Positions 18,579 through 63,381 of a DNA stretch of 64,000 nt are shown here, in pieces; position 1 is the stretch's first letter; the number at the start of each line of letters is the position of its first letter. Origin of the DNA: Sacculina carcini (taxonomy: Eukaryota > Arthropoda > Thecostraca > Sacculinidae); assembly GCA_916048095.2 (NCBI GenBank), contig OU696593.1, positions 5,312,830 to 5,376,829 of the forward strand, read 5' to 3'. The notes below the pieces were generated by a model. That model ran no database searches. It was not told where the DNA came from and saw nothing but the letters and a program-made list of their open reading frames with translations. A program made the translations under genes and the position numbers.

Positions 18579-21500
18579 ATGAGGGTGACCATCACCACGC
18601 AGACCGACGAGCTGTATCATCTTGATGTGAGTGGTGATCTCGAACTGGAGAACTTCAAGGCCTTCATTCAGGTGCGTGTCTGTGCAGTCAATATTGATAT
18701 CATTGTTTTTATTTTCAATATTATTGTTAATATTGTTATTATTATCATTGGTATTATTATTTTTAATGCACAAAACGAACAAAGTAACACAGAAAGAGCG
18801 CACAAAGAGCGTTATTAGCTGCCTCATGCCGCCCTACACACTGCACATGCAAAAATTGGAAGGAGGATAAAAATATATACAGGGGCGAATACGACACAGA
18901 AAAAATAAATCACGAATCACACACACATGTGGGCACTAATAAAATCATCACAAGCATTATGTATTTGGTAAAGTTTGTATCATATATTTTCAAATTTTAC
19001 AAGCGGGACTGGTTGAAGCCGAAAAAACTCAGGTAGCCCACAAAACAAAACGTAAAGACGCGACAAACTGATAGATAGATTTAATTTCATAATAAATCTA
19101 CAAAATTGAAGAAATGTTGAAAAAAGTATAATAACGCGGCACAGGGAAACAATTGTACTTATATCGAACGACTAATAGCCCACCGACTAACAATTGTACT
19201 TATATCGCACGACTAATACCATACAAATGACTAATATGACATTATTTTACGTTTATATGTACAAAGGGTTTTATAAAGGGTAATTCTTGGAAATCCGCAT
19301 TTCGTGTGTTGCTTTGATCTCAATTAACCGCGCAGCGGCGGACCAAGGGTGCGATTTTTTTTTGGGGGGGGGGGCTGAATTATGTATGAGTGACTAGGTA
19401 GCGTGTGAATGTCATGACTTGGACATTTTTCAATGATTTATACACACACATTTACACAGACAATAATGTGCGAATATGTTTTGAGATAATGCTTACATCA
19501 GCAAATTTCACAGAAAGATATTTTTCTTGACTTCTTTTAGTGAATCTCTCGGTTATTAGATGATGCAAACATTTTTTGGGGGGTCTTCAGTTCCCTGAGC
19601 CCTCCTCTCGATCAGCCAGTGTAGTAGCGATATACGGGAGTGCACTGTACGCATAGCTTTATAAAAACGTGTGTTCTTACCTTACCTAGTTGACTCGGCA
19701 GGAATGAGTCAAAGACTCGTCACTCCTGCCTTCCAAGTATCATATTTTATTTTGAATGATTGTATTGTTTTTTTATTTAGGATCTCCTCTGGTAGCTTGT
19801 TCCAATCATCTTTCGCCCTATTGGGGAAACTAAATTTGTGAACGTCTCTTTTTATTCTACGTTTTTGTAGACCAAATTTGTGACCTCTTTTTTAGTTTGC
19901 CAATTAGAATAATCTTGATTTTGTACCACTTCTTTTTTCGAAAGATATTTATAGATTGCAATTAAATCCCCTCTTTTTCGCCTTTCCTTCAATATCCACA
20001 GACCTAATTTACTCAATCTGTTTTGATAAGATAAATCTGGGATGCTGCTCAAATTTTTTGTGGCCGATCTTTGTACTTTTTCCAATTTCTTCTTGTGTGT
20101 TCGTGTGTGTGTGTGTGTGTCTGCTGGCGTGCAGGTGGAGACGAACATTCCGTCCGGCGAGATGTTACTGGTGCACAGTGGCCGTCATTTGACCGACAAT
20201 TTGCAGACTCTGTCCAAACTGGGCATCACCGACAATGACGTCATTCTGGTACAAAGACTGGCAGGTAACTCCCTCCCTCTCACACTCACACACTCTCACA
20301 CACTCTCTCCATCACTTGCAAACACACATACATGTATTTTTCTGTTTTCCTATTGTGCTGTGCATTTTGGACGATTAATAATGAATATGTATAAACTAGA
20401 AGTGCGGTTGAGTGTGTGTCTATGTGTATATATGTGTGTATTTATATGTGTGTGTGTGTGTCTATGTATATATGTATATGTCTATGTGTATATGTATGTA
20501 TATGTGTGTGAGTGTCTGTGTATATGTATGTGCCTGTGTGTACTTTTGTATGTGGGTGGGTGTCTATGTATATATGTATCTGTCTATGTGTATATTTATG
20601 TATATGTGTGTGCGTGTCTATGTATATATGTATGTGTCTATGTGTATATTTATGTATATGTGTGTGCGTATCTATGTGTATATGTATGTGTCTGTGTGTA
20701 TTTATGTATATATATATGTGTGTGTCTATGTGTATATATATATATATATGTGTGTGAGTGTCTGTGTATATGTATGTGTGTGTATGTATGTATGTGTCTG
20801 TGTGCTTGTGTACATGTATGTGTGTGTATGTATTTGCAGGTGACAGGTCATCTTCCGCCGGCCGACCGACCATTTCTCAATCACTACCACCGCCCCTACC
20901 AACAGCCACCGCCTCCTCCCCATCATCTACTACTACTACTTCATCCGCCTCTGCCGCCGCTGCGCCGACGACGGCCGCTGCAGAGGCGGCGGCAGGACGC
21001 GGCGAAAATGACCCGGCCTTTTTGCGCGACATGTTCTTATCCAACCCCCATCAGCTGGCTCTGCTAAAGCAGAACAATTCTCGACTGGCCGATGCCCTGT
21101 TGTCGGGAGACATGAGTGAGTGTGTTTTATTGTCTGTTATTTCTTTTAGTTTTCATTACTGTCTCTATTGGTGTTTTGTATCTTTTTCGTATTCAATCGT
21201 AGTGGATTTTCTTGTATTTTTGTGAGTTCATACTTGCTAATTTGTATATATTTTATAGTTTATACTTCGTATTTATTCATTGTTGATTTAATTATATTTT
21301 TAAAGTTCATATTTGCTTCATAGTTCATTTTTGCTCAATAGTTCGTAAGTGTTCAATAGTTCATAATTGTTCAATCATTCATTTTTGCTCAATAGTTCAT
21401 ATTGTACACACACGGAAACATACACACACACACGGACACACACACACACTTACTTACTGATGATGGCTGATGTGATGATAATTATGGTGATAGGTCGGTT

Positions 21501-22710
21501 TGAGGCGGTGTTGGCCGAACAGCAGACGGCTATGGCGCAGCGGCAGCGACTGCGTTCACGCATGCTGGCCGCCGATCCGTTTGACCACGAGGCGCAGCGA
21601 CTAATCGCCGAGGAGATTCGGCTGAGCAACATCGATGCCAACATGGAGGCGGCTATCGAACACAATCCGGAGAGTTTCGGCGCCGTCATCATGTTGTATG
21701 TCGACTGCAAAGTCAACGGACATCCAGTGAAAGCGTTCATTGATTCAGGTGCGCGCGCCTGTGTTGGTCTGTGTTGGTCTGTTTTGGTCTGTGTGGGTCT
21801 GTGTTGGTCTGTGTTGGTCTGTGTTGGTCTGTGCTGGTCTGTGTTGGTCTGTGTTGGTCTGTGTGGGTCTGTGTTGGTCTGTGCTGGTCTGTGTTGGTCT
21901 GTGTGGGTCTGTGTTGGTCTGTGTTGGTCTGTGCTGGTCTGTGTTGGACTGTGTTGGACTGTGTTGGTCTGTGTTGGTCTGTGTTGGTCTGTGTTGGTCT
22001 GTGTTAGTCTGTGTTGGTCTGTGTTGGCTTGTGTTGGTCTGTGTTGGTCTGTGTTGGTCTGTGTTGGTCTGTGTGGGTCTGTGTGGGTCTGTGTTGGTCT
22101 GTGTTGGTCTGTGTTGGTCTGTGTTGATCTGTGTTGGTCTGTGTTGGTCTGTGCTGGTCTGTGTTGATCTGTGTTGGTCTGTGTTGATCTGTGTTGGTCT
22201 GTGTTGATCTGTGTTGGTCTGTGTTGATCTGTGTTGGTCTGTGTTGGTCTGTGTTGGCCTGTGTTGGTCTGTGTTGGTCTGTGTTGGTCTGTGTTGGTCT
22301 GTGTTGGCCTGTGTTGGTCTGTGTTGGTCTGTGTTGGCTTGTGTTGGTCTGTGTTGGTCTGTGTGGGTCTGTGTTGGTCTGTGTTGGTCTGTGTTGATCT
22401 GTGTTGGTCTGTGCTGGTCTGTGTTGATCTGTGTTGGTCTGTGTTGATCTGTGTTGGTCTGTGTTGGTCTGTGTTGGTCTGTGTTGATCTGCGTTGGCTT
22501 GTGTTGGTCTGTGTTGGTCTGTGTTGGTGTGTGTTAGTCTGTGTTGGTCTGTGTTGGCTTGTGTTGGTCTGTGTTGGTCTGTTTGTTTCTATATATGTGT
22601 GGATTGTATGTGATTGTTTCTGTAGTCTTGTGTGTATGTATAGATATATTGTGGTGAATGTATGTATGTTCGTGTTAGTGGGTGTGTGTGTTGGTGTGTA
22701 TATGTGTGTA

Positions 22711-22785
<75 letters not shown>

Positions 22786-23268
22786 GTGTGTGAGTGTGAG
22801 TGTCTATGTGTGTGTAAAGTAAAGTAAGTAAAGTAAATTGCTTTATTGTACTCCAATAATTTGGCTTTTCAGTACAAACAACATAAACACAAACATAAGC
22901 ACATACTATGTGTGTGTGTGTGTGTGTGTGTGTTTATGTGCGTGTTTAGCAGCGTACTCACATTCTAGACATTCTATTATCACTAATATTAATAATTAAT
23001 CAGTTATTTATTGTTGATACTGCAATGTTGCAGGCGCGCAGACCACTCTCATGTCTCAGGCTTGTGCAGAGCGATGCAACATCATGCGTCTGGTCGACAC
23101 TCGCTTCAGCGGCTTGGCCAAGGGCGTCGGCGTGCAGAAAATTCTCGGTCGCGTGCACATGGGCCAGATTCAGATAGAAGACTGTTTTCTCTCGTCGTCG
23201 TTTGCCATTCTCGAAGATCAGCCGATGGACATGCTACTGGGACTCGATATGCTCAAACGACACCAGGT

Positions 23269-23306
<38 letters not shown>

Positions 23307-24095
23307 GCTGGTGTGTACGTGTATGTGTACGTATTGTACGTGTACGTATTGTGTGTGTGCATGTGTGTGTTTGTGTATGTTTGATTGTATGTGTTTACAT
23401 GTTTGTGTTTGTGTATGTTTGCTTGTGTGTGTTTGGTTGTGTGTGTGTGTATGTGTACGTATTGTACGTGTACGTATTGTACGTGTACGTATTGTGTATG
23501 TTTGATTGTGTATGTTTGATTGTGTGTGTTTACATGTTTGTGTTTGTGTATGTTTGCTTGTGTGTGTTTGATTATGTGTGCATGTGTTTGGTTGTGTGTG
23601 TGTTTGATCGTGTGTGTGTTTGCTTGAGTGTGTTTGTGTATGTGTGTGTGTGTTTTTGCTTGTGTGTGTGTTTATGTTTGTGTGTTTGCTTGTGTGTGTG
23701 TGTGTGTCTTTTTTTGCTTGTGTGTGTTTGCTTATGTGTTCAATCAATGAATCAATGTTTTTATTGCAATCGCTCAATATGCACGTTTCATTGCAATTTA
23801 ACTACGTACAAGCATGTGTGTGTGTGTGGCTTTGTATGGATTTAGCGTATCTGTTGGTGTGTGTTTGGGTGTGTGTGTGTGTGTGTGTATTAGATACATT
23901 TGGATGTAAAGCGCGATATAATAATAAATCTATATTGTACTGTATGTGTGTGTGTTTGTATGTTTGTTTGTGTGTTTATCAGTGTGTGATCGACTTGAAG
24001 CGTAACGTGTTAACAATAGGCACCAATGGTCGAGCTACTCCGTTTTTGTCCGAGTCTCAACTACCAGCCTGTGCCAGACTCAGCAACAAGTAACA

Positions 24096-28081: not shown

Positions 28082-39560
<11,479 letters not shown>

Positions 39561-40778: not shown

Positions 40779-42613
40779 GTGGTATTCTTGATTGCCAAAG
40801 ATCCGACTCCAATTGTTGGCGGTGCAGTGCTCGGTCTGAGAGTGCAGAGAAATGCAGCGGGCTTGCTGGAGTTTCGTCGGGGAAATGAGTTACCGCAGGT
40901 AGATCGTACACTGACTAAACGCCAACTGTTTTCTTTATGTGGGAAATTGTTGGGCCACTATCCCATTGCCGGGTGGCTCAGACCGGCGTGCAGCTATGTC
41001 AAACGTCATTCATCCGATGGTGGCTGGGATGACACAGTCCGGGAGGAAGTTCTGTCTGTTACACACGACATGCTAGAACAAGTGAAAAGCGATGATCCAG
41101 TGCAAGGAAAGTGGTCGGTTTCAGAATCGAAATCTGGTGTTGTGTGGTGTGACGCCAGTAATCAGGCTATTGGAACAGTAATCGAAATCGACGGAATCGT
41201 AGTGGAAGATGCCTCGTGGCAGAGGAAAAAAGATGACTTCAATCATATAAACGTCGCTGAGCTTGAAGCTGTATCCAGAGGACTCAATCTTGCAATAAAG
41301 TGGGGATTAGAATGTATAGAAGTACGCACCGACTCCGCTACAGTTTTTGGCTGGCTGCGTGCCACACTATCCGACGAGAACAGAGTGAAGACAAAAGGAG
41401 CTGCAGAAGTTCTTGTGAAACGACGACTGGGAGTAGTCAAGGAGTTAATTGATGAATTGCGTCTCGAAGTGAGATTGATTCTTGTTCCTACAGCAAGTAA
41501 CAAATCAGACTCATTGACGCGCATCAACAGGCAATGGATGCTGAAGCTCGAGAGAAAACCGGTAAACGAAACATGCGGCATGGCGTTGGAAAGAGTGAAA
41601 GATCTCCACCGTAGTCATCATATGGGCGTTGACCGAACGTTATCTCTCGCTAAGCAAGTGGACCCTACTGTGACACGTGAACAGGTGAAACGTGTGGTGA
41701 AGAGCTGTCTGGAGTGTCAGTCTATCGATCCTGCGCCGGTGACTCACGAGGCGGGCGAGCTGCACGTGCCAACAGTCTGGACAAGATTGGCAGTCGATGT
41801 TACTCATTTCAGATATCGTCCATTTCTGTCTATTGTTGATTGCGGCCCTGGAAGGTTCGCGATATGGCGAGAGCTGCGTGCAGAGTCGGCAAATGAGATT
41901 TCAAATATCCTGAACCAAGTATTTTATGAGCGAGGGCCTGTTGAACAAGTGCTGATGGACAATGGAACGGTGTTCAAGTCAGAATTACTCAGGGAAACCC
42001 TCGATGGCTGGAAAATCAGCAGGTTTTTCCGAGCGGCTTATCGACCCAGCGGAAACGGTATTGTCGAACGGCACCATCGTACGATAAAGAGGATAGAGCT
42101 GGCATCTCCCCGCTCGAGGCAGTATTTTGGTACAACATGGCGCCCAAATCGGATCGAATTGAAGACAAGGCGCCGCATCACAGTGTCTACACATATGCCT
42201 GGCGACATCCGGAGGTTTTGCCAGCCCACAATGACGACGGCGAGAAGAACTCGGGCATAGAAGTCGGCGATGAAGTGTGGGTAAAGCCACCTGGGGCAAG
42301 ATGTACGTCGCATTGGTCAAAAGGAAGAGTGACCGGGATTCAGTCCTCAAACAATGTATCGGTGGATGGAGTACCGAGGCATCTACTAGATCTGCGGCGT
42401 GTGTATGATGAAGACAATAATCGAGATGACGCCGGTGGTCAAGACGTGGACAATCAGACTCCAGATGACTGTGCAGCGGACACGAACGAAGTGCTCGAGA
42501 CAACTGACATACATAATGGAGCCGAAGAGGACCGGAGTGAGCACATTCTTCGGAGATCTACCAGAGAGAGGAGACGTCCGCCTTGGATGGACGATTATTT
42601 CGTAGGTGATTGA
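40779..42613 (+). pseudogene. Frameshifted RNase H/integrase polyprotein remnant
   Basis: One frame runs 40779-42260, but after the integrase glutamate (about 42070) it loses sense. The neighbouring frame, ending at 42613, picks up at about 42100 with ISPLEAVFWYN and continues through VGDEVWVKPP to an acidic tail. A single-base-type frameshift near 42085-42100 explains this. The start is not a true start codon because the element is truncated at its 5' side. Confidence 0.8.
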
Positions 42614-43162: not shown

Positions 43163-45765
43163 CTGATCCAATTGATATTTAGTATTGGATACGTTTTTCT
43201 GTATTTCATAGTTATATATAGTATTTAACATTGTATTTCAATGTGAATTTAACTTGAGTGTAAACCGTCTGTTTTTGTAATTCTTGGTACACCACGCTTG
43301 TTTGGTGTGAGTTGCGCGTGTGTTGCGAGGAAGAAGGAATTGTCGTTGTTGGAATATATGATTGATGTTGAAAGCTTTGTGTTATGGACTATTGGGGTTG
43401 AAAGTCTATAATACTTAGTGTCCCTAATGAGCTACGATTAAAAACATTTATCAGAGTGGCAATCCTGACCAGAAAAACGGACAATATTTTCGTGTAGGAA
43501 AAAAACGGCTGAGCAAATATATTTAATGTACAAAAAGGTATTTGAACACAAATAAGTACATACTTTCCTAACTAGATACTACTTTGCTAACTACTTTACT
43601 TCACTTATTAACTAACTACTTTACTAACTTCTTTCCTTGATCTGCCGCCAATATTTTTCCTAAATCCACATCTACCAAAACCGTTTTCCAAAAAAATTTA
43701 TTTTGAAAAAACCATGGTTAAAAAAATAGTTCAAATCAAGTGGTTTAACCAGCCGCTTATACCAGCGGGCTACTTGCTATCCAAAAGATATTTGAACCTA
43801 AACCAATCAAATCTATCTTCCATAGAGACTGTTCTAGAAAGCATTGTTTCATTAAAGAAACGTTAGTTTAAATATACGTTTGTAAAAAAACACTTGACCA
43901 ACCAATTAACTTGTCTTGTTCTGCTGTCAACATTTTCTGAACCTGTACATTGATGAAACAAATTTAAAACCAGTTTGAAAAACATCATTGCATTTTTTCA
44001 TAAAAAACATTGTTTCTCTAAAAAAAACTCATGGTTACTCAATGAATTTGTTTTGTTCTGCTGACAAAGTATTTCAAATATCCACCTCATTGAAACCATC
44101 TTTAAAAACATGACTTTTCTCAATGAAAAAATCTAAACCAACGGACCCGGATGCACTTTCAAACAGTCTCCTTAGGTATTTATTGATAAATATTCTAGTT
44201 TTTTATACTATCATCAAATTATCTTTGAAACAAGACACGTAAAGATGTACAAAACATCAATTAAACTCATTTCTATGTACTAAAATCCTACATCCGATGA
44301 CAATTGGGGCTAATTCTAAAATACCGAAAAAACAAAAAAAGCTAAACACATGTTTTTTGCAAAAAAAAACCTCAACCAAAAAAACGTTTTTTTGCATCAC
44401 TACGTGCAAACCGTCATACTCGCTTTGCACGTGCACAGACATACACACCTTGCACACTAACACAAACCGTAGTAGTATCGATCACATGTTTGACAATTGA
44501 AATGATGATGAAACGATATCCACCACAAACCGCCATGATGGTGATTGATGTTTCATTTTTAATCATTTGTCTGCATCACAGGGTATTTATCAAGTCCAAA
44601 TCGATTCGGTCAATTAAAATTGCAGGACGACGCCCAGCCAGACCAGTCAAGCATAGACGGTCACATCGAGCTCACATTTCCCCCGGGAAGTGTCGAATTT
44701 CCCCCTGGGGGAAAATTTTCCCCCGGTTAAGAACCGCTGCTCTACACAGACACACGCTCTGCCACCACAACGAGTGCAAGTTCGTGGTATTGCCGGGGGC
44801 AACTTCCAGTGAACTCAGCGATATTTGATATCGGTCTGAATGAGCGGGGGATATAGGCGAGTGTAGAACTTTCGATGTCGCTCGTGCAGACTGGTCATTC
44901 AGCAGCGACACTCTTCACGCACCGCTTCTGCCCCCGCGCTGCACTAATCGCACGGTGTTGTGTCAACGCTAAATTTTGTTTGACAACCTAGGCTGTGATG
45001 AAAATATAAAGTGAACCCGTGCCAAATTTTCTGTGCTTGAGCTAGAACAAGTCAGCTTCTGACTCCTTGTTACTGGCTGCTATGGCTATTAACAGCGTAA
45101 TAACATCGAACTATCCAATGACATCTCATGCTCTCAATTCACCAAGCAAGCGATATAAACGAATCTACTGCGACCGAATCGTCAGACACAGAACAAGTAT
45201 AGATTAAATACAATAAAACCACAGATAGATAATTACAGTATGAACTGTCGCCACAGATAACCAAAAAAACAAAATACGTTCATAAAAAAGTCCAGAATTA
45301 AACACAAAATCTATCAAACATATCTTGTTCAGTGGGATGGATGAGCTGGTCGGCTCCTACACAGTTAATCAATGCGGGGTTTGACGTCACCAAAGTGAGA
45401 GAAACCTCACCAAAGTGAGAGTACCTTCCATCCTTTCTCCTAAGGTTGGCGGGAGAAGTAGTGGAACCACCAAGTGTCCGAGGACCCTAGATTGGGAACC
45501 TCTGATTTAACACAGACACAAGCTTGGTAGCCGGGTGAATCTCTAACAATACTGCACAAGTGCCAGAGTAAAACGACAGTAATGACCGATTTGGTCAACA
45601 TGGCGGGCAAACTGCGGCGCAGTTATCGCTGGTAACTGCATAAAGACCATCGGCGGTGATTACTACCACTGTGCACTGAATCACGCGCATTGAATATTTA
45701 TGAAGATTAAAACTGTATTAATGAACTCATTTACTACTTCTGAAAACATTTGATCATTCCTATAT
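43163..45765. other. Intergenic, AT-rich, with decayed repeats
   Basis: No gene is visible. 43640-44130 has repeated AAAAAACATGG-like and TTTAAACCA-like motifs also found at 45790-45870 and 61720-61800. A hAT-type right end with CCCCCTGGGGGAAAATT and GGTTAAGAACCGCTG lies at about 44690-44740, and another possible one (TTGGGAACCTCTG) at about 45492-45504. Confidence 0.4.
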
Positions 45766-46049
45766 GAGAAAAATCATTTCTGTCAAAGAAACAATTTTCA
45801 AAAAACCATGTTTTTTATATAAAAAAACATGGTAAACCATGGTTTAAACCAAATAGTTTAAACCAAACAAACCCTGCTTTGGAAGTCAAAGCCCAAGTAC
45901 ACATCTGTTCTACAGTGGCTGATACCGTCAATTTCGTCTGAATATCCTTCGTCTCCGTTGATCACAATTAATTTCGTTTTTGAGTCATTAATCTGCATAC
46001 CATATTCCGAACAGTTGACTCCGAGATTCGTTCTGGATGTGGCCTATAT

Positions 46050-46358
46050 CAGTGGTCCCCAACCCCCGGGCCGAGGACCGGTACCGGTCCGTGGGTCGTT
46101 TGGTGCCGGGCCGCACAGAAATAATAAATGACTTACATTGCTTCTGTTTTATTGATTTCGGAATCTGAACGATGTTTTATTTACTGTTTTTATTAGATGT
46201 TTTATGTATTTTTATTGTTTTAGAAAATACAACAGTTTTCATGCAGGTCATATCATGTTATTTTGTTGTATTTATGCGCCACACCTCAAAGGCCGGTCCC
46301 TGAAAATATTGTCTGACATTAAACCGGTCCGTGGCGCAAAAAAGGTTGGGGACCGCTG
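46050..46358. mobile_element. hAT-type MITE with perfect target-site duplication, absent from copy 2
   Basis: Termini CAGTGGTCCCCAACC and GGTTGGGGACCGCTG. GCCTATAT is duplicated exactly on both sides (46042-46049 and 46359-46366). The corresponding place in copy 2 (about 61974-61981) reads GCCGATAT once, with no insertion. The internal CCGGGCCG/GGTCCGTGG motifs are typical of this MITE group. Confidence 0.92.
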
Positions 46359-46615
46359 GCCTATATAACAGTATCATCAGCATGAGCACTCATATGTGAA
46401 GCATTTCGGAAATCCGTCCCATTTTATTCTCGGTCTAATCATTTCTATCAGTTCTCGTTGTCAGTTGATATCAGTTGATATGTCTCACTCCGATACATAT
46501 TGTTACTATTGATTTTATTTAATGTTACTTTCTGTGACGGCATACATTGTTCCAAGAGCTCCACACAAACATACACACACACACACACTGACACATACAC
46601 ACACATATTTGTTAA

Positions 46616-46975
46616 TATGTGTTAAAAGGTTAAAGATTATGAGTCTCAAGTGACAGCTGCTACACTGGAAGAAGTTGAAGCTTATGAACACACACACAGG
46701 TGTGTCCCGTGCAGCTCGCTGCCACCGCAGAACCCACCCTATCCACGCTATGGCGCCACAAGCACGGGAGACGTATTAGAGAGGGCCACCTCCCCAGAAT
46801 GCATGATACAACACATGACTGATATCTGGTATCATTTACTGCTGGGTGGACAGGGGCTGTTGGATTATAGAATTCACCCCAAAATAATTCTCCTCCACCG
46901 GGATTCGAACCGCTGACCTCTAATCATCAGTATTTTACGTATTTTACGTCTACTCCACCAGCAAAAATCATTTGT
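46616..46975 (-). repeat. tRNA-headed SINE, copy in duplication copy 1
   Basis: Same body as the 12.5-13.2 kb pair, from the GTTAAAAGGTTAAAG tail to a head with GGTTCGAATCCC (complement at about 46898-46909). The head has a different anticodon-arm sequence with a duplicated TATTTTACG, so the family carries diverse tRNA-like heads. Confidence 0.75.
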
Positions 46976-47060
46976 AAGCGACCCTTGCAGATTTAACTAC
47001 ATTGAAGAGGTGAGTCAGTTAAGCTTTCACAGTGCTGCAAATTTGCACATTACATTAGAA

Positions 47061-47187
47061 CGCTAAACCTAACCTAACCTAAAATCTATGAAAAATATAG
47101 AAACGTTTTTGTGGGTTTTCCAAGCGTTTTTTTTTTATAAATTAGCGTTTTTAATGTTCTTGAATCCTTACACATTTAGCCTAGACC
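47061..47187 (-). repeat. Dispersed TTAGG-like repeat
   Basis: Reverse complement of 10109-10226, with CTAAACCTAACCTAACC at its left side. Confidence 0.75.
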
Positions 47188-47727
47188 AAAAAACTCGGCC
47201 AACCGATCCCGAACTTCGAGGTCTGTGAGTACGCCCAATTTCTCCTGACATAAGCACGTTGTCACGGAAATTGGTGTGACCCATGATACAGGAGGACGGT
47301 GTAACTCAATTTGATCTTCACTCGGTATCGGAATGCTCATCTCAATCGATGTTGCTAAAGCTCGCCTCGAAAAGGTGGATGCTAATACACGATGTCGCCG
47401 ACTGCGCTGATGAGATGGAATTGGATGAAAATTTAAAATTCGACGGATACAATGACCTTTTCGAATGAGAATTATAAAAAACGTACGAGTTTTTATTATG
47501 TCATTTATTTACGAGGAAACATTTAGACATATTTAGAAATAATTTCTTTCAACCGCAAGTGCCGATTGGTTGTTCATCACGAGTTTTCATTAGATAATGA
47601 TTTACGAGGTCACTAGTATAGTAATTGTGTTAGATGCAGTCATTTCTGAACTGGATTTCAGCTGTGGAACATCGTTCTCACACACCGTCAGTTCAGTTTC
47701 TGTTGAAGGTGAATACCTGAAGACAAC

Positions 47728-49881
47728 ATGCAAGATATGCGCAAAAAGATCACTATTGAGGAGGCGTTTGCCAAACACCTAGCCTGGACCGGTGTTACCG
47801 AAAAGGCAGCAAGGCTATGCGTCCACTATAACAACACTTCAAAGTGGAGCATGTTTTCCAACTGGAAGAAGACCATTCGCCAGTGTCCCGCGTACTGTGT
47901 GCGCAATCTCAAAAAGTACTCGGCAAAAATGACCACCAAGAAGCCCAGCAAGGTTCTCGTCAAGTGTAGCCAGCATACCACTTTGCTGCAAAACCTGGAG
48001 ATCTCGCTGCGTATGTACACCAGACGTTGGCTTCTGGATTTCGTGGAGCAGCAAGGAGTCATTGTTCTGCTCGACTACATGAATATCATACTATCGGCCA
48101 AAGAACGTCTTGACCAAGAAGAGGAGACCACCACTTGCTGTATGCCGATATTCTGCAGATCTAAACCAAACACCAATAAGTCCATTCTTATTAAAAATGC
48201 ACACCAGGTGTTAAAACAATGTGTGCTTTGTCTCAAAGCAATAGTGGGAGATAAAATATCCATCTATAAAATAGTCCTGAATCGGGAAAATATCCTAGTG
48301 CTGGTACGTTGCGTCGACTTTATCGTACAAGAGTCTTCGGCAACGATCATTATTGATCCAACAGCATCTACGATCATGGGCATTTTAAAAACGTTGGCGA
48401 TAAACGACCCACATGTCCGCAATGTGCTTCAAGATTTTCGCTACAATGATCTCTACACCCGTCAAATGGGCAGATTAAGTGATTTGGTCAATAATTTCGA
48501 TGAGCCTGGGCCTCAATCGCCATATATTGAGATGCAAGATCCTGATACCAAAACTCAAACGGTCAGTGCGGACCTGGTGCCTGCGGCGGCGGCGGCGGCC
48601 AGCTCAATTGAGGCGGCAACATGTCCCACCAAGTATTCGCTGGCCGATTTTGAGCTGATTAGCGTGATTGGACGCGGCCGCTACGGCAAAGTGATGATGG
48701 TGGAGCTGCGACGCACTCGGCGCGTGTACGCTATGAAGGTGATCAGGAAGGAGATACTAACCAGCGACTTTCTCATCAAATCAGTAAAGATCGAAAAGAA
48801 CGTCCTTCAGACAGTATCCAACCATCCGTTCCTGGTTGGACTGCACTCGTGCTTTCAGAGTTTCAGTCGGCTGTTTTTTGTGATTGAGCTTGTGAGCGGT
48901 GGTGACCTCATGTTTCACCAGTATCGCCACGGCAAACTGCCCGAGGAGCACGTCAGGTTCTACTCGGCTGAGATTTGCATAGCGCTCAAATTTCTACACG
49001 AGAACGGTATCATCCACCGTGACCTGAAGCCGAGAAATGTGCTGATCGACCACGAGGGCCATATCAAGCTGACGGACTACGGCATATGCAAGGTGGGAAT
49101 TCGGCCGGGCGACAGGACGCTCACATTCTGCGGCACGCCCTGGTACATAGCACCGGAGATTCAGTTTGGCGAGGGTTACGATTTCAGTGTGGACTGGTGG
49201 GCGCTGGGTGTGCTCATGTACAAGATGATGACAAATTACTATCCGTTCGAAATTTTCAATCATTCTGGCTGTACCACTGATATACCAGAGTTACTGCTGT
49301 TGATGTCTATGACCCACAGGATCCTATGCCTTCCGCAGTCTTTGTCGGTGGAGACGCGCAACATCCTCAAGGGATTTATCGAGATAAACCCGCTGAAGCG
49401 ACTGGGATGTCATTCGGATACCGGTATCCAGGACATACTGGAACACGCGTTCTTTGAGAGCATTGACTGGCAGCTACTGGAGCAGAAAGAGCTGACACCG
49501 CCGTACAAGCCGTACATCAAGACCAAACGTGACCTGGCCAACTTTCCGCATCCGTTAACCCACCAACCGGTGTGGATGGCACCTAACAGACCAATCAATA
49601 AACGGTTTCAATACATCGACCAGAGCCATTTTGACGGATTCGACTATGTCAACCCGTCGCTGATATCCGATGAAGGTCATACACACATCGATAAAGGTCA
49701 CACAGAAAGATGTTATACCACCGTTATTATTGAACCAAGCAGTGATGCAGCCAGTGAAACGGTGACACCAGCCAGGATCAGTACCTCGGCCAGGACCAGA
49801 ACGTACCCGGTGACATCGGCCGTGTTCAACATTGACAGGTCACATCTCGATCGCTGTGTCTCTTGTCCATCTAACATCTAA
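47728..49881 (+). CDS. Intronless chimeric kinase: FMNL-formin GBD/FH3 fused to an atypical-PKC catalytic domain
   Basis: 717 aa in one exon. The ATG follows an in-frame TGA (47710-47712), so the start is secure. Residues 1-270 read as the GTPase-binding/FH3 region of an FMNL formin: KARL...YNN.SKW near residues 27-40, LEISLR at about 90, FVEQQGVIVLLDYM, then CVLCLKAIVGDK. A poly-Ala linker lies at about 283-290. The kinase domain, about 308-575, has the glycine loop GRGRYGKV, lysine in YAMKVI, HRDLKPRN, DYG (an aPKC hallmark), TFCGTPWYIAPE and FSVDWWALGVLMYKMM. A C-tail with IDQSHFDGFDYVNP matches the aPKC hydrophobic motif with an acidic residue. PB1, pseudosubstrate and C1 domains of aPKC, and FH1/FH2 of formins, are absent. 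Key catalytic residues are all present. In formins the first part binds Rho-family GTPases; direct GTPase control of the kinase is my inference. The lack of introns suggests retroposition. Confidence 0.85.
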   Translation: MQDMRKKITIEEAFAKHLAWTGVTEKAARLCVHYNNTSKWSMFSNWKKTIRQCPAYCVRNLKKYSAKMTTKKPSKVLVKCSQHTTLLQNLEISLRMYTRRWLLDFVEQQGVIVLLDYMNIILSAKERLDQEEETTTCCMPIFCRSKPNTNKSILIKNAHQVLKQCVLCLKAIVGDKISIYKIVLNRENILVLVRCVDFIVQESSATIIIDPTASTIMGILKTLAINDPHVRNVLQDFRYNDLYTRQMGRLSDLVNNFDEPGPQSPYIEMQDPDTKTQTVSADLVPAAAAAASSIEAATCPTKYSLADFELISVIGRGRYGKVMMVELRRTRRVYAMKVIRKEILTSDFLIKSVKIEKNVLQTVSNHPFLVGLHSCFQSFSRLFFVIELVSGGDLMFHQYRHGKLPEEHVRFYSAEICIALKFLHENGIIHRDLKPRNVLIDHEGHIKLTDYGICKVGIRPGDRTLTFCGTPWYIAPEIQFGEGYDFSVDWWALGVLMYKMMTNYYPFEIFNHSGCTTDIPELLLLMSMTHRILCLPQSLSVETRNILKGFIEINPLKRLGCHSDTGIQDILEHAFFESIDWQLLEQKELTPPYKPYIKTKRDLANFPHPLTHQPVWMAPNRPINKRFQYIDQSHFDGFDYVNPSLISDEGHTHIDKGHTERCYTTVIIEPSSDAASETVTPARISTSARTRTYPVTSAVFNIDRSHLDRCVSCPSNI

Positions 49882-54593: not shown

Positions 54594-56660
54594 TTGTGGC
54601 GTTGTGCGCATTTATTTTCAGTGCAGCGTAGTTGGTTCGACGTCGGCGTTATCTTCAGTTCTTTCCTTCACCTTAATCAACTGCCTGATATATCATTTAC
54701 CTCTCTATCTTTTGAATATATTGCACTTTACCTTTCACTACCTGCATCACGTAGGCTCGGCATAATCCTTATATATCGCCACAACAATCCAGGTTCTTCT
54801 TCACAATTCATTTCAGATTTTGACACTCTCATCTCTATTATATTTGAAAAATTCTCCGACAATTTCATTCTTCTTGGCGATTTCAATTTCTGGGCAGATT
54901 CTTCTTCACTTCATACACCTACTCAAAACTTTCTTTCCCTGCTAAATTCCTGGGATCTTTCAGTCCTGAACTCAGGTAGCACACATCTATCCGGTCATTC
55001 CCTCGATCTAATCATCTGCACCGAAGCTTCTGCTAAATTTATTCCTCCTGGTTTGCTTACTTATCCTCCCGATCCCACGATTTCCGACCACAGTCTGATA
55101 TCATTTAAATTGTTTCTTAAACGCCAGGAAGCAAATCCTTCACCGATAACTCTTTTCACACGTGATTACAAAAACTTTGACTCATCCATTTTCAGTTATC
55201 TCGTGTCAATTTCTCTTGCTCCCAACAACTATCACTTCCTGTCCCCTTCATCGCTGCTACCCTTCTTCGACAATTCACTATCCATATTTAATGACACATT
55301 ATTCCCATTACGTCGTTGTACCACCAAACCTTCATCTTCACCCCAGCCGTGGTTGACTCCCGAACTGCGCCGCCTTCGTGCCAATTCTCGAGCTCATGAG
55401 CGTTCCTGGCGACGGTACCGGACCGACGCTAACTGGTCTATGTTTTGTCAGGCTCGTAAATCTTTCCTATCAGCCCTTGATGCCGCAAAGTCTCTTTTTT
55501 ATCGTTCTAAGCTTTCTTCGTGTACTTATTCTTCCCGCTCCAGATGGTCGACCCTGAAATCTATCACTGGCTCATAGAATTCTAGCCCTTGCTCAATATC
55601 TGCTTCCTGTTTTTCATCCTTCTTTCGAGACAAGATTGCCACGGCCAAATCCAAATTACCTCCGTCCTCCCTTCCACTATCTTTTCCTTCTTCAAACACC
55701 TCTTTATCTTCTTTCTCTCCAATTTCTCCAGCCATGACTGCCAAATTTCTTAAAAAACTTCAATCCTCCAGGTGTCCATCTGATCCAATTAACTTCCGGG
55801 CTCTTTCCGACTCCATCATACTCTTTTCCCCATTTCTTACTCATCTGGTGAACACTTCTTTCCTCCACGGTACTTTCCTGGCCTCTAAACACGCTGTTAT
55901 TTCTCCTATTCTTAAAAAGCCTTGCCTGGATACTAGTACTCCATGTAGTTATAGGCCTATTTCCTTGCTTCCACTACCTTCTAAGCTTCTGGAGGCTGCC
56001 ATCCTTCCTCAACTCCGCCCTTGCATACTTTCTGCCCTAGACCCCCGTCAATCCGGTTTCGTTTCTAATCACTCAACTGAGACTCTCCTTCTATCTTTAT
56101 TGAACGACATCTTCGCTTCCTTTTCCTCAGGCAACTCCGTAATATTCATCTCTCTAGATTTCTCTTCCGCCTTTGATCTCGTGGATCACTCGATTCTTTG
56201 TAAAGATCTTGCCCATATTGGTGTATCTTCTTCAGCTCTATCTCTTCTAACTTCCTATCTTACAAATCGTTCATATACAGTTCGCTGCAACTCCGAGTTT
56301 TCCTCTCCTCTTCCATTGGATTCAGGTGTCCCTCAAGGTTCTCTTCTCGGCCCTCTTCTGTTTAATCCGTATATTTCATCCCTCTGCCCCATACTCCGGT
56401 ATTACCCCATATCGTTTCATATATATGCAGACGATATACAGATTTACTTCCCCTTTTCCTCCTCAAAAATTGGTCTAATTTCTCAACTTCTATCACACAT
56501 CGCTGCCTGGGCGTCCTCAAGAAATATCCTTTTGAATCCTGAAAAAACTGAATATTTCTTATTTCATCCTCCCAGTATTGCTCCTTGTTCTGTCAACTTG
56601 CCTCTTTCATCTCATATTCGTAATCTGGGTGTTGTTCTTGATCCCTCTCTAACATTCTAA
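54594..56660 (+). mobile_element. Degraded LINE ORF2 (second lineage), truncated at both ends
   Basis: One frame runs from about 54594 to 56660 with a single in-frame TAG at 55575-55577. It has endonuclease remnants (LGDFNFWADSS, SDHSLISF) and a reverse transcriptase with RPISLLPLPSKLLE, SSAFDLVDHSIL, SGVPQGSLLGPLLF and YADD (YADDIQIYF). The codon make-up is CT-rich and unlike the other LINEs here, marking a separate lineage. It stops at 56660 shortly after the post-RT motif LGVVLDPSLTF, followed by short TATGTTTGTTATGATATGATG repeats. Confidence 0.88.
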
Positions 56661-57189: not shown

Positions 57190-60100
57190 AAATTGTAAAT
57201 TGTAAATGTATTGCCAGGAAAAAAACAGTTCACACGAAAATCATCAGAAAAAAACAGACATACGGCTATGTTCGTCGAGCAACTGCTCTTAGACGAACAT
57301 GTAATAATGAATGAAACGGATTCAATTAACAATCAATTATCACGCGACAGAATATTTACACATGCATACATATACACACACATATACACATATATATATA
57401 TATATACACATATGCACATATATATACATATATACACACATGCACATATATATACATATATACACTCATACATACACACATACATACGTACATACATGCA
57501 TACATATGCCCAGATCGCATTAAACGCAGAAAAAGATAAACAATCAATACGCGGGAAAATATGAAAATGAATCCGTTCTCATTGCAGGAAAATGTTAATG
57601 GTCGACGTCAGCTTTATTCAGGAAGTGATTTTTCAGTTTCTTTTTGAGCTGTTTTAGTGAGGTAGATGTTTCTATGAAATCTATTTCCGAAGATAAATTA
57701 TTCCAAATGTCTGCTCCTTGATATATTAGGCTGTTTTGAAGAAGTTTTGTTCTGAACTTTGGAACCGCAAGGTCATTATTGTTTCTGATATTGTGATAAT
57801 GGTTGTCCAAGCGATAGAAAATTTTATTGATCTCCTTATGTTCGTATAGTAGCCGATAGACAAAAAGGATTATGAAGTATTCGCGTATAGAGCCGAAACG
57901 TAGTAATTTCATTGCTGAGTAAGAATTTGTTGTTGAATCAAACTTTTTTAGCTTCATAATACATCTAATAATTTTGTTTTGTGCAACTTTTATTCGTTTA
58001 AAATAAGATGGCCACGTGCATGACCAGATTGGTACTCAATATATGAGGTGGAGGTAAATGAGAGTGAAGTATATACTACGCATGCATTCCTGTGTAAGTG
58101 AACGTTTAACTTTGTGTAATATACCACATGTTCTTGAAATTTTATTTGAGACGTTTTCAATATGTGCATACCAATTCATATTTTCATCAATGGTGACTCC
58201 AAGAAATTTTGTTATTTGAACTTGTTTCAGCAATCTACCGTCCAGTGTTAAAGGAGGAAATGTCAATTTTCTCGATCTGTTTTGGACGAAAATATATTGA
58301 GTCTTGTTCAAGTTTAATTTGAGCTTATTTGAAGAAATCCACTGATAGATGTTATTGAGTTCGTTTTCTGCGACAGAATGTAAATTGTGTAAATTTGGAT
58401 CGGTTAATGTGAGTGTCGTGTCATCTGCGTATATCTGCGTATGCGTGAATTTGAATTTGGAACTGGCTCTCACAATGTCATTGAATTAAATAAGGAATAA
58501 AATTGGACCAAGCACTGACCCCTGTGGAACACCATTGCTTATTGATTTAGATGAAGAAAATTCGTTGTCATAAAAAACAGATTGAGTTTTACTATCAAGG
58601 TAGCTTTTGAATAAATCAAGACATACCCCTCTTATACCGAGTTTTTCAAGTTTTTTGAAGAGAATATAGTGATCCAGTGAGTCGAACGCCTTGGAAAGGT
58701 CCAAAAAGATACCAAGTATGTGATTGCCGTCATCTAGTTGTTGGTAAACTTCAGTAACAAAATTAAAGACCGCATCCTCTGTAGATCTATTGGTTCTGAA
58801 ACCGAATTGATAGGGGATTATTAATTTATTCGTTTCCAAGTACGAACTTAAACGCGAACATATACATTTTTCAAATATCTTATTGAAGGCGGGTAAGAGT
58901 GAGATAGGCCGAAAATTATTGATGTCATTGAGATCGCCAGATTTGTGAATGGGAATAATTTTAGCTTTCTTAAGTAAATCAGGGTATGAAGCGTTTGCGA
59001 AAGATAAATTGATAATATGAACGAGTGGAATGGCTACTTGCAAACTGACTTTTTTATGAGTTGCGGAGGAATATCATCATACCCAGGAGAATTTGATGTG
59101 GTTTTATTCAGGTAACTAATAACTTCGCTACTGTCTACTGGTTTAAGAAACATAGATTCAGGAACACTCTCTGTGAGATAACTATCAAACGGGATATGGC
59201 TATCAGGTTTATCAACAGGTGAGCTCAGTTTTATGAAATTATTATTGAAAACATTTGCGCGGCTGACATTTGCTTGTTTAAAGTGTGGGAGATATTCAGG
59301 ATTATTTGTTTTCCTACCCAGAATAGAATTGATTATGTTCCAATGAGATTTAGGATTCCCTTGGTTTTCACCCAGTTTTACCTTCAGATAATTTTCTTTT
59401 GCTTGACGGATTGTAAAATTCAATTTATTCCGAAATTTTCTATACGAGTCTCTGTACGTTATCGGCCATTTCTGAGCTAGCCTTTCCAGACGGTGTTTTT
59501 CTCTGATATCTTTTTTTATTTCTTCCGTAATATATGGTTTGTCCAATCGTTTTCTGTTGAACTTGACGTTGGTGCATGGAAAATATTTCTCAAATAAATT
59601 GTGGAAGAGATTGAAGAAACAGTTATATGCATGATTAGGACAGCTTGATGCCATCACCGGCTCCCAGTCCAAGGTTCCGAGTTCATCGCTGAATAATTCA
59701 ATGTTTTCATCTTTCATAATTCTTTTGCGAACAAATCGTTGTGCATTTTTATCCATTTTAATGCCAGGTTTTATTTCGAATCGTGAAATTGTTAGATAGT
59801 GGTCCGAGATGTCATTTTTCACTACGAGATTTGCAATATTGTGTTCGAAATCGGTAGTCCAAATGTGATCTATCAAAGAAGATGATGTTTCTGTCACGCG
59901 AGTAGGAAGACATATTAGAGGCATAAATGAATATATACTCATCAGGTTGGATAAATCATTTTTGGTGAGGCTGGTTTTTAATAGGTCTATATTTAAATCA
60001 CCGAAGAGATATATTTTTTTGAATTTTTTGCTTGCTAAATACAAAATATCTTGAAATGTTTCGAAAGATGTGTTCAAGTTTGCATTGGGTGGTCTGTAAA

Positions 60101-61600
60101 TACACATTAGGAGTGATGAATCACCAGAGTGTGAAATTTCAACACCGAGACATTCCATTGCATCATGCAAGCAAGACAGTTCATTTAACGATTGTGCGCT
60201 AAATTTGTCCGATACATAAATAGCCAGTCCTCCACCTGATCTGTTTCTTTTCTTGGTGAATAACGTATAGCCGGGGAGCTGGTAAAGGTTGAAAATATCT
60301 TCATCAAGTCTTGTTTCAACAAAACCAATGACGTCAAGGTCAATTCCGATATTCAACATTATATAGTCCTGGAAAAGTTGAAAATTAGCTGGGATACTCC
60401 GAATATTCATACTGCAGATATTGAACGTGGAAGGGATTTTATCGAGCGGAAAATCATCAGCAAATACATATTTAGATTGAGGAATTTTTAACTTTCTTAA
60501 TTTTTCATAAAAGTAAATGTCATCGTAATTAAATTGTTTTTCGTTATCCTCTATATCGGATGTCGATATGTCAGATATCATTATGGGGCAGGAAACTGGG
60601 AGAAACTTACAGATTTTAGGGTTCTACCGCTTTCTTGACGGCTTCTTTTGCTGCTTGATTGGCGATCCGACAGATCCTCCAGCAGCTCCCCGTGTTTCTG
60701 TTATATGTTCGACGCCAGCCGACTGGACGCGATTTTGTGACGCCAGGGCAACGCCAGGGTCGTGTGACGTCAGAGCAACGTCGCGTTCACGTGACGGAGC
60801 CGAGTCCGTATGACCTTGCTGTGACTTCACAGTAGTGCGACCAGTCGAAGCAGGCGGATCTAGAGAGGTTGATTGGGAAGCAACAGGCGGCGTGCGGTCC
60901 TTGATGATTAACTTGGTGTGGCGAAAATATGCCACCTTACCCTCAAGTCTGGCTTGTTTCAGTTTCGGTAACTGTTCTTGTCGTTTTACGTTTGACGCCG
61001 CACAGAGGTCCTCATTGACGAAAATCTTTGTCCCTCTGAGCTTCCTGACGTTTCTCATGACGGTGTCCCGATCCCCCAGCTTGTCGAATCTTACGATGAT
61101 GTTCCTTGCGCGAGAAGATCCGGTACCAACTCGGTGTGCTTTGTCGATTTTCAGCTCAGGCAATTCCATTACGTCCTTCATGACATTGGTAACCAGCTCC
61201 GTGGTTTGCTCAGCAGTTTCATGAGGTTTTTCATCAATACCTGAGAAACGCAGATTTTTACGCCGGCTGAAATCTTCCTGGGCATCAGTTCTCTCCTGCA
61301 GCTTGAAGTAATCTTGATGCAGCGAGTCAAAATTCTTCTTATGATGAGACTCACTCTCCTGCAGGGACTTGACTTGCGCTTTTAGATCAAGCACCTCCGC
61401 CTGTGTGAACTCGAGACTCACACGAAGATCGCTCACTGTTTTTTCCAGGTATTCGATTCTTGATCGGGTGTTAGTCTCTATCACATCTAGCGCTTGTTTG
61501 AAGGCGCTATTTTGTGAATCTAGTAACGCTTTGATGACTCCTTCCCACTCCATAATACACTTCACTTCACACCACACGAGCAAGCAATTGGGCTGTTATC
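57181..61600 (-). mobile_element. Two-ORF LINE (CR1/L2-like), nearly full length, inactivated
   Basis: In transcript order: ORF1 (61583-60624, likely starting at the Met near 61552) with a long coiled coil and an L1-ORF1-like RNA-binding domain ending in a basic Ser/Lys tail. ORF2 starts at 60581, 43 bases later, with endonuclease motifs VETRLD, YRPPNA, FGDLNIDLL, DHIW and SDH. It shifts frame near 59040. The RT continues with SKAFDSLDHYIL, NGVPQGSVLGP and YADD (about 58430), interrupted by in-frame stops at 58486 and 58036. A 3' UTR ends in TTTACAA units (57181-57208) joined to (CA)n. The gene order gives the layout that the intact ORF2 at 35-38 kb lacks. Confidence 0.92.
60624..61583 (-). 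CDS. LINE ORF1 protein, intact
   Basis: About 310-319 codons. Residues about 30-120 form a heptad-rich coiled coil (EYLEKTVSDLRVSLEFTQAE), followed by an RRM-like segment (FSRRKNLRFSGIDE, KAHRVG, RNIIVRFDKLGDRDTVM) and a C-terminal domain. ORF1 proteins of this type bind element RNA as multimers. The tail is basic. Confidence 0.85.
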   Translation of the reverse strand: MLVWCEVKCIMEWEGVIKALLDSQNSAFKQALDVIETNTRSRIEYLEKTVSDLRVSLEFTQAEVLDLKAQVKSLQESESHHKKNFDSLHQDYFKLQERTDAQEDFSRRKNLRFSGIDEKPHETAEQTTELVTNVMKDVMELPELKIDKAHRVGTGSSRARNIIVRFDKLGDRDTVMRNVRKLRGTKIFVNEDLCAASNVKRQEQLPKLKQARLEGKVAYFRHTKLIIKDRTPPVASQSTSLDPPASTGRTTVKSQQGHTDSAPSRERDVALTSHDPGVALASQNRVQSAGVEHITETRGAAGGSVGSPIKQQKKPSRKR

Positions 61601-61686: not shown

Positions 61687-62257
61687 GTTAGTCGGTTGAG
61701 AAAAATCATTTCTGTCAAAAAACAATTTTCAAAAAAACATGTTTTTTATATAAAAAAACCATGGTAAACCATGGTTTAAACCAAATGGTTTAAACCAAAC
61801 AAACCCTGCTTTGGAAGTCAGAGCCCAAGTACACATCTGTTCTACAGTGGCTGATACCGTCAATTTCGTCTGAATATCCTTCGTCTCCGTTGATCACAAT
61901 TAATTTCGTTTTTGAGTCAATAATCTGCATACCATATTCCGAACAGTTGACTCCGAGATTCGTTCTGGATGTGGCCGATATAACAGTATCATCAGCATGA
62001 ACACTCATATGTGAAGCATTTCGGAAATCCGTCCCATTATATTCTCGGTCTAATCATTCCTATCAGTTCTTGTTGTCAGTTGATATCAGTTGATATGTCT
62101 CCGATACATATTGTTACTATTGATTTTATTTAATGTTACTTTCTGTGACGACATACATTGTTCCAAGAGCTCCACACACACTGACACACACAAACATACA
62201 CACACACACACTGACACACACGCACACACTGACACATACACACACATATTTGTTAAT

Positions 62258-62610
62258 ATGTGTTAAAAGGTTAAAGATTAAGGGTCTCAAGTGACAGCTG
62301 CTACACTGGAAGAAGTTGAAGCTTATGAACACACATAGGTGTGTCCCGTGCAGCTCGCTGCCACCGCAGAACCCACCCTATCCACGCTATGGCGCCACAA
62401 GCACGGAAGACGTATTAGAGAGGGCCACCTCCCCAGAATGCATGACACAACTCATGACTGATATCTGGTACCATCATTTACTGCTGGGTGGACAGGGGCT
62501 GTTGGATTATAGAATTCACCCCAAAATAATTCTCCTCCACCGGGATTCGAACCGCTGACCTCTAATCATCAGTATTTTACGTATTTTACGTCTACTCCAC
62601 CAGCAAAAAT
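62258..62610 (-). repeat. tRNA-headed SINE in duplication copy 2
   Basis: Counterpart of 46616-46975. Confidence 0.75.
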
Positions 62611-62717
62611 CATTTGCAAGCGACCCTTGCATATTTAACTACATTGAAGAGGTTAGTCAGTTAGGTGAGTCAGTTAAGCTTTCACAGTGCTGCAAAGGCA
62701 GCACATTACATTAGAAA

Positions 62718-62840
62718 GCTAAACCTAACATAACCTAAAATCTATGAAAAATATAGAAACGTTTTTGTGGGTTTTCCAAGCGTTTTTTTTATAAATTAGC
62801 GTTCTTAATGTTCTTGAATCCTTACACATTTAGCCTAGAC
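62718..62840 (-). repeat. Dispersed TTAGG-like repeat in duplication copy 2
   Basis: Counterpart of 47061-47187, with one CCTAACCTAACC unit changed to CCTAACATAACC. Confidence 0.75.
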
Positions 62841-63381
62841 GAAAAAACTCGGCCAACCGATCACGAACTTCGAGGTCTGTGAGTACGCCCAATTTCTCCT
62901 GACATAAGCACGTTGTCACGGAAATTGGTGTGACCCATGATACAGGAGGACGGTGTAACTCAGTTTGATCTTCACTCGGTATCGGAATGTTCATCTCAAT
63001 CGATGTTGCTAAAGCTCGCCTCGAAAAGGTGGATGCTAATACACGATGTCGCCGACTGAGCTGATGAGATGGAATTGGATGAAAATTTAAAATTCGACGG
63101 ATACAATGACCTTTTCGAATGAGAATTATAAAAAACGTACGAGTTTTTATTAAGTCATTTATTTACGAGGAAACATTTAGACATATTTAGAAATAATTTC
63201 TTTCAACCGCAAGTGCCGATTGGTTGTTCATCACGAGTTTTCATTAGATAATGATTTACGAGGTCACTAGTATAGTAATTGTGTTAGATGCAGTCATTTC
63301 TGAACTGGATTTCAGCTGTGGAACATCGTTATCACACACCGTCAGTTCAGTTTGTGTTGAAGGTGAATACCTGAAAACAAC

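Follow-up and report, generated by a model that had tools for sequence, protein, structure and literature searches.

The window examined here is a stretch of 64,000 nucleotides of the Sacculina carcini genome. On its plus strand, at 47728-49881, lies the uninterrupted frame that the initial annotation had described: 717 codons plus stop, running from ATG to stop without an intron. Given the base composition of the window, chance alone would yield about 3e-17 frames of 717 codons in a stretch of this size. Elsewhere in the window are exons of a DDI2-like gene at 21460-22164 and 23051-23842 (Asp_protease and a weak Ddi2_HDD match), a tRNA-Val (CAC) gene on the minus strand at 12769-12841 (ARAGORN), and retroelement reverse-transcriptase/endonuclease ORFs at 35428-38478, 29639-31147, 55734-56660 and 59034-60581 (-). 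The retroelement ORFs include one endonuclease-RT frame of 1016 aa and an integrase-bearing frame at 41070-42260. Tandem-repeat arrays at 11064-12212, 21759-22582 and 31947-33178 (periods 29, 10 and 8/90/278, respectively) give rise to long spurious ORFs.

Pfam searches with the 717-aa translation returned Drf_GBD at residues 7-197 (47746-48318, +; E 1.8e-12; score 47.6 bits, threshold 30.1) and Pkinase at residues 309-576 (E 3.6e-60), and gave no match at E<=1 to Drf_FH3, Pkinase_C, PB1 (PF00564), C1 (PF00130) or FH2; of the domain models by which the initial annotation had proposed to check its reading, Drf_GBD and Pkinase were significant, and Drf_FH3 and Pkinase_C were not found. Compared with PDB sequences, the N-terminal part matched FMNL2 (4yc7, E 6e-8) and FMNL1 (4ydh, E 5e-6) ahead of Diaphanous (E 0.2), and the C-terminal part matched PKC iota (3zh8, E 1e-128) with PKC beta next (E 1e-94), which bears out the proposed aPKC kinase half. 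A profile of 19 GBDs from the same genome aligned to FMNL1 with E 1.5e-23 over chain residues 36-290, corresponding to the GBD and the start of the FH3 armadillo repeats. An FMNL-type GBD is present, as claimed; the FH3 region, also claimed, is there only in part, since the profile match stops at FMNL1 residue 290, before armadillo repeats 4-5, which are absent from the fusion. The rest of this shortened FH3 region was placed at 48319-48537 (+) from the alignment of the 19-row profile to FMNL1. A structure model of residues 1-300 built without an alignment was poor (pLDDT 40.6). The kinase domain and C-tail occupy 48652-49665 (+), as delimited by the Pkinase and PKC iota matches and by motif tables, and are followed by a subfamily-specific C-terminal extension at 49666-49878 (+); homology to distant copies ends at 49664-49667, where the frames of those copies end.

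The segment between the two halves, 48538-48648 (+), holds the fusion joint and the aPKC hinge. Homology to the most distant fusions breaks at 48528-48540 and restarts at 48547-48553 (blastn), and the stretch initially taken as an Ala-rich linker turned out to be the hinge of the host's aPKC. The host aPKC at C8:6.619 Mb (C denotes contigs) comprises a frame encoding PB1, the pseudosubstrate and the first part of C1, and then one exon from C1 to the end of the kinase; in that exon a hinge with TETVSVD and an Ala-rich stretch lies between C1 and kinase, and the homology of the fusion to host aPKC begins inside this hinge. Since the host kinase lies within one exon, retroposition is not needed for the kinase half. 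In a kinase tree of 50 rows, built without one Artemia aPKC, a branch (100/99) set all 42 fusion domains apart, with the host aPKC nearest beyond it, and the host aPKC and the fusions together split from the protein P0002, Pollicipes and five other arthropods. The set behind this tree, used also for the dN/dS estimates, excluded nine loci (partial or duplicate), L013, and kinase matches shorter than 300 residues. Kinase and hinge are, judged by homology and tree position, those of the animal's own aPKC, and the tree is consistent with a single capture of both, although it is no proof of one. P0002, an aPKC with a similar hinge, was considered as the host's own aPKC and rejected; because the host exons are only 70-73% identical to it, it comes from another, related animal, and among the best 120 proteins it is nearest to the Pollicipes aPKC (81%, next about 75%). 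The host aPKC itself sits beside P0002 and Pollicipes in the kinase tree, which puts the genome with the barnacles or close to them. Domain searches and host comparison agree with the swap of PB1-C1 for a formin GTPase-binding region that had been proposed for this ORF, and the claim stands with the significant Drf_GBD match. The ORF is, by its domain content, a true FMNL-GBD/aPKC chimera in which the formin region replaces PB1 and C1.

The initial annotation treated the chimera as single; it proved to be one member of a large family. In the genome of the same animal (264 Mb, 43 contigs), at least 141 matches to the fusion protein were found, and 135 to Drf_GBD. Of the latter, 110 fall within open frames of >=600 aa, and 45 within frames of >=1000 aa; GBD matches are not equivalent to genes, as three frames on C9 hold two GBDs each and a handful of matches look like exons of conventional formins. 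Fusion clusters lie on C4, C11, C15, C21, C25 and C26, and more copies on C2, C3, C7, C8, C10, C18, C19, C23 and C35. Architectures were read for about 46 of about 130 GBD frames (hand count). Dozens of copies in the genome are the same GBD-aPKC fusion and carry between one and three kinase domains after a single GBD: single-kinase fusions measure about 700 to 925 aa, two kinases occur in L024, L030 and L048 (L denotes loci), and three in L021, L022, L023, L027 and L047. In L023:2007-7181 (C35) and L021:1245-6191 (C15) three tandem aPKC-type kinases lie in one intronless frame each, with DYH in some domains only, and in the 2897-aa frame of L047 (C20) the aPKC hinge (RSDSxxG...ETVSVD) is repeated several times between the GBD and the three kinases. 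The same module also precedes other C-termini. L051, L052 and L054 (C18, C24 and C6, respectively) join it, without introns, to a Ulp1/C48 SUMO-type protease (Peptidase_C48, E 3e-15 to 8e-13; the genome holds 18 matches to this domain, only part of them in fusions), and L053 (C15:6641300-6644900) joins it to a PI-PLC-like domain, a weak match (best PDB E 2e-4) that a Pfam search did not return as a PLC hit and that has three copies in the genome, all on C15. L058 (C25:6167050-6169700) is an intronless mini-formin made of GBD, poly-Pro stretch and FH2; L039, L040 and L045 (C9) carry two GBDs and a Pro/Ser-rich tail, and L055 a GBD alone. Among the frames read, L013, L014, L017 and L034 are broken copies.

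A GBD tree was built from 45 rows, after the same nine loci and identical GBDs had been dropped. The 32 aPKC-fusion rows and six double-GBD rows formed one clade (99/99), the double-GBD rows falling inside the aPKC fusions with weak support (80/29); the three C48 rows made a separate clade (100/100), PLC grouped with FH2 (98/92), and the GBD-only and FMNL2 rows were long branches of unsure placement. The likely canonical FMNL is split over C20:8159024-8189714 (about 30 kb), with its GBD/FH3 and FH2 pieces in separate short frames, whereas the frames of the fusion copies are uninterrupted. Because the canonical gene is spread over this region while the copies are open, the comparison suggests that the founder was a processed formin transcript, and L058 may represent the founder type. 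An FMNL identity was also considered for the GBD exons at C9:4597229 and was rejected, since these read as a Diaphanous/DAAM-type formin.

The window copy itself belongs to a segmental duplication of about 15.65 kb, seen as repeat families D1, D2 and D4-D9 with 91-98% identity and a spacing of 15.6-15.9 kb. The duplicated block begins at 45765 or earlier, and homology 3' of the gene reaches about 54832. Repeat analysis and blastn matched the 5' flank at 45765-47727 (+) to 61697-63381, directly before the start of the second tandem copy, L002 (63382-64000, +), which runs past the window end, is 97% identical and has HRDLN for HRDLK. Homology of distant copies mostly starts at 47485-47504, so that distant subfamilies have about 240 conserved bp in common ahead of the ATG; 3' flanks are unconserved between them, and the homology of distant copies ends with the ORF. 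The conserved upstream block at 47485-47727 (+), defined by blastn and by an alignment of 19 upstream regions without L040, L051, L053 and L058, is a candidate promoter or 5' UTR and is probably non-coding, because its indels are not multiples of 3. A whole-genome pattern search with its 28-bp core (47556-47583, +) gave 97 matches at <=3 mismatches, and the reversed control gave 0. Ninety-three of these matches lie 152-383 bp (median 168) upstream of the start of a GBD match on the same strand and serve 79 distinct GBD starts of the 134 listed; those at C11:5490970, C20:3308323, C20:3308498 and C9:8457378-8457405 have no GBD partner. The core at <=3 mismatches is missing from 55 of the 134 listed starts. 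Among these are the C48, PLC, FH2 and GBD-only genes read, in agreement with their position apart in the tree, and also 14 starts on C15 (within or among aPKC fusions), three on C7 and C10, and the C9 double-GBD genes; in L021, L024 and L035 the alignment revealed the upstream block in diverged form. Most simply, the element would be a promoter or 5' UTR that the genes of the kinase branch have in common.

Coding sequence in the family is mostly under purifying selection. The median dN/dS was 0.34 for the GBD (681 of 741 pairs used, 0 above 1) and 0.42 for the kinase (822 of 861 pairs used, 8 above 1). Within the window subfamily, which comprises 12 loci (two on C26, nine on C4 and one on C10), pooled pN/pS was 0.55 (GBD) and 0.77 (kinase); the corresponding values for subfamily B (L015/L016/L018) were 0.65 and 0.20. 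Measured against the host kinase, the window subfamily gave dN 0.22-0.23 and dS 0.62-0.74, and L015/L016/L018 gave dN 0.14 and dS 0.59-0.60. The kinase of the window subfamily is more relaxed than that of L015/L016/L018.

Relatives outside this genome were sought in a collection of 5.8 billion proteins. With the full protein as query, no GBD protein was present among the best 120 of 6604 matches (7980 candidates scored); with the N-terminal part alone, none was found at E<=1e-3 among 2287 candidates; and the 19-row GBD profile, in a search reaching proteins of similar length only, returned one distant match, P0121, at 20% identity. A pattern-based scan of viral contigs, with a reach of close relatives only, confirmed no relative. 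The initial annotation knew of no described family with such an architecture, and accordingly no fusion appeared among the matches listed from the protein collection, nor did searches of open papers find a formin-GBD/aPKC fusion in print. The Sacculina carcini genome paper (PMC9582164; draft of 298 Mb) reports in its main text that the two most strikingly expanded families carry protein-kinase domains, and that main text does not contain the word 'formin'; the expanded kinase families are possibly the GBD-aPKC genes. The word 'kinase' is absent from the main texts of PMC9664023 and PMC8917513, and 'formin' from that of PMC9664023.

We favour, with a probability of roughly 0.55, the reading that these genes form an amplified, lineage-specific superfamily built on an intronless formin module, whose kinase branch was derived from the animal's own aPKC and would provide a GTPase-docked kinase. 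The founder would have been an intronless, probably processed FMNL N-terminus, and one branch would have captured the hinge and kinase of the animal's aPKC, most simply once; the fusion would then have spread by duplication, with some clades gaining a second and a third kinase and the upstream element being largely retained. If expressed, the GBD and first armadillo repeats would dock the protein on an active Rho-family GTPase at membranes, and the kinase, with its T-loop primed and without PB1, C1 or pseudosubstrate, would phosphorylate aPKC-type targets locally. In its action such a protein would resemble PKN or MRCK, or a PAR6-aPKC complex condensed into a single chain. The family would also be a clear example, in an animal, of a single docking module combined with enzymes of unrelated kinds, and it would offer definite candidates for the expanded kinases of Sacculina; the surprise lies in the repertoire and not in the single ORF. 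Against this reading count the lack of any fusion among the listed matches of the protein collection, the loose GBD of subfamily B (0.65) and the core missing at 55 of 134 GBD starts.

The residues expected to contact the GTPase bear on this reading and on its first alternative. As described in PMC4432619, the GTPase in the FMNL2-Cdc42 structure is touched by all five armadillo repeats; contact residues include H222, R261 and E111, and the Cdc42 insert helix is contacted by repeats 4-5. E111 is kept in 17 of 19 GBDs, including the window copy; H222 is kept in 10 of 19 and is K in the window copy; and R261 aligns with Ser in a by-eye reading of the profile alignment. With E111 and H222 partly kept and repeats 4-5 absent, GTPase binding by the fusion GBD is plausible, without pointing to any one GTPase. 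The kinase half is likewise uneven across the family. The catalytic kinase residues of the window copy are kept, as had been claimed: the G-loop, VAIK-Lys, HRDLK, DYG and T-loop Thr are all intact, as is the acidic hydrophobic motif FDYVNP. In the turn motif, however, LTP has become MAP and the Thr is gone, as in 6/6 tabulated members of the window subfamily (L001-L004, L010 and L011). L002, L003, L004 and L011 have one change each in the core catalytic motifs. The T-loop Thr is replaced by K or N in the C4 copies, L011 excepted, and L011 has HHD for HRD. DYH stands for DYG in one or two domains of L021-L024, L027 and L030, alongside DYG domains in the same chains; every kinase domain of L047 and L048 has DYG. 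By analogy, the multi-kinase proteins could possibly combine active and altered domains as a JAK-like pair, and some copies may be scaffolds.

A tentative alternative, to which we give about one chance in four, is that the N-terminal part has ceased to sense GTPases and serves as a dimerising or localising scaffold, with the kinase or pseudokinase half competing with aPKC complexes or positioning them. The partly kept contact residues, the missing armadillo repeats 4-5, the degraded motifs of some kinase copies and the DYH domains of several multi-kinase proteins would suit it, and the same observations, together with the relaxed kinase (0.77), the lost turn motif and the copies without T-loop Thr, HRD Arg or HRDLK Lys, weigh against a GTPase-docked kinase. 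However, a scaffold would not lead one to expect a GBD whose median dN/dS is not looser than that of the kinase (0.34 and 0.42), or E111 in nearly every GBD compared.

Somewhat more doubtful is an effector repertoire of a parasitic barnacle at the host interface, in which one docking module would be set on kinase, SUMO-protease and PLC heads. Unlike C-terminal enzymes do stand behind the same module, the expansion is large and has a common upstream element, the similarity of the host aPKC is nearest to barnacle, and the two families singled out as most expanded in this animal carry protein-kinase domains (main text of PMC9582164). No delivery signal was apparent by eye at the N-terminus, however, and the kinase half stems from an intracellular polarity kinase and could act in the animal's own cells. 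In its widest form, and at similarly long odds, the proposal would be that about 100 or more intronless genes combine the formin docking module with kinase, SUMO-protease, phospholipase or actin-nucleating heads as a host-interface repertoire, the kinase branch being co-regulated. If true, this repertoire would parallel, in an animal, the modular arsenals of effectors. Bacterial effectors and the multigene families of bracoviruses offer the analogy.

That the copies are for the most part dead retrogene clutter, spread by tandem duplication and with little or no function, we regard as unlikely. The relaxed kinase of the window subfamily (pN/pS 0.77), the four broken copies and the lack of a transcript-derived relative in the protein collection searches would be explained by it, but 110 of 135 GBD matches lie in frames of >=600 aa, median dN/dS is 0.34-0.42, and the upstream core stands at a similar distance before 79 of the 134 listed GBD starts. 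An origin of the copies from an integrated virus or some other mobile element, for which intronless frames and dispersed clusters might speak, is highly improbable, given that the kinase is the animal's own, that distant copies share about 240 bp upstream and the ORF with homology stopping where the ORF does, that retroelements and a DDI2-like gene account for the neighbouring ORFs in the window, and that the viral-contig scan, within its reach of close relatives, returned none.

The GTPase-docked kinase that we prefer can be set against several known systems. The aPKCs (PKC iota/zeta) resemble the fusion in kinase domain, hinge and acidic hydrophobic motif; they have PB1, C1 and pseudosubstrate, whereas the fusion is without all three and has a formin GBD in front, and they keep the turn-motif Thr that the window subfamily has lost. 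With the FMNL formins (1-3) the fusion shares the GBD and the first part of the FH3 armadillo region; FMNL proteins have FH2 and five armadillo repeats, whereas the fusion is intronless, lacks FH2 and any match to repeats 4-5, and starts with MQDM in place of the MGxxxS of FMNL2. The PAR6-aPKC-Cdc42 module likewise ties an aPKC kinase to a Rho-family GTPase, but its coupling needs PB1 and PAR6, whereas the fusion would achieve it in one chain. PKN and MRCK/ROCK unite a Rho-GTPase-binding domain and an AGC-group kinase in one chain, and PKN and MRCK show that such a combination is workable in principle; they bind through HR1, CRIB or coiled coil, whereas the fusion would bind through a formin GBD of independent origin, and in that case a GTPase-coupled AGC kinase would have been invented independently out of polarity components, with more than one kinase per chain in some members of the amplified family.
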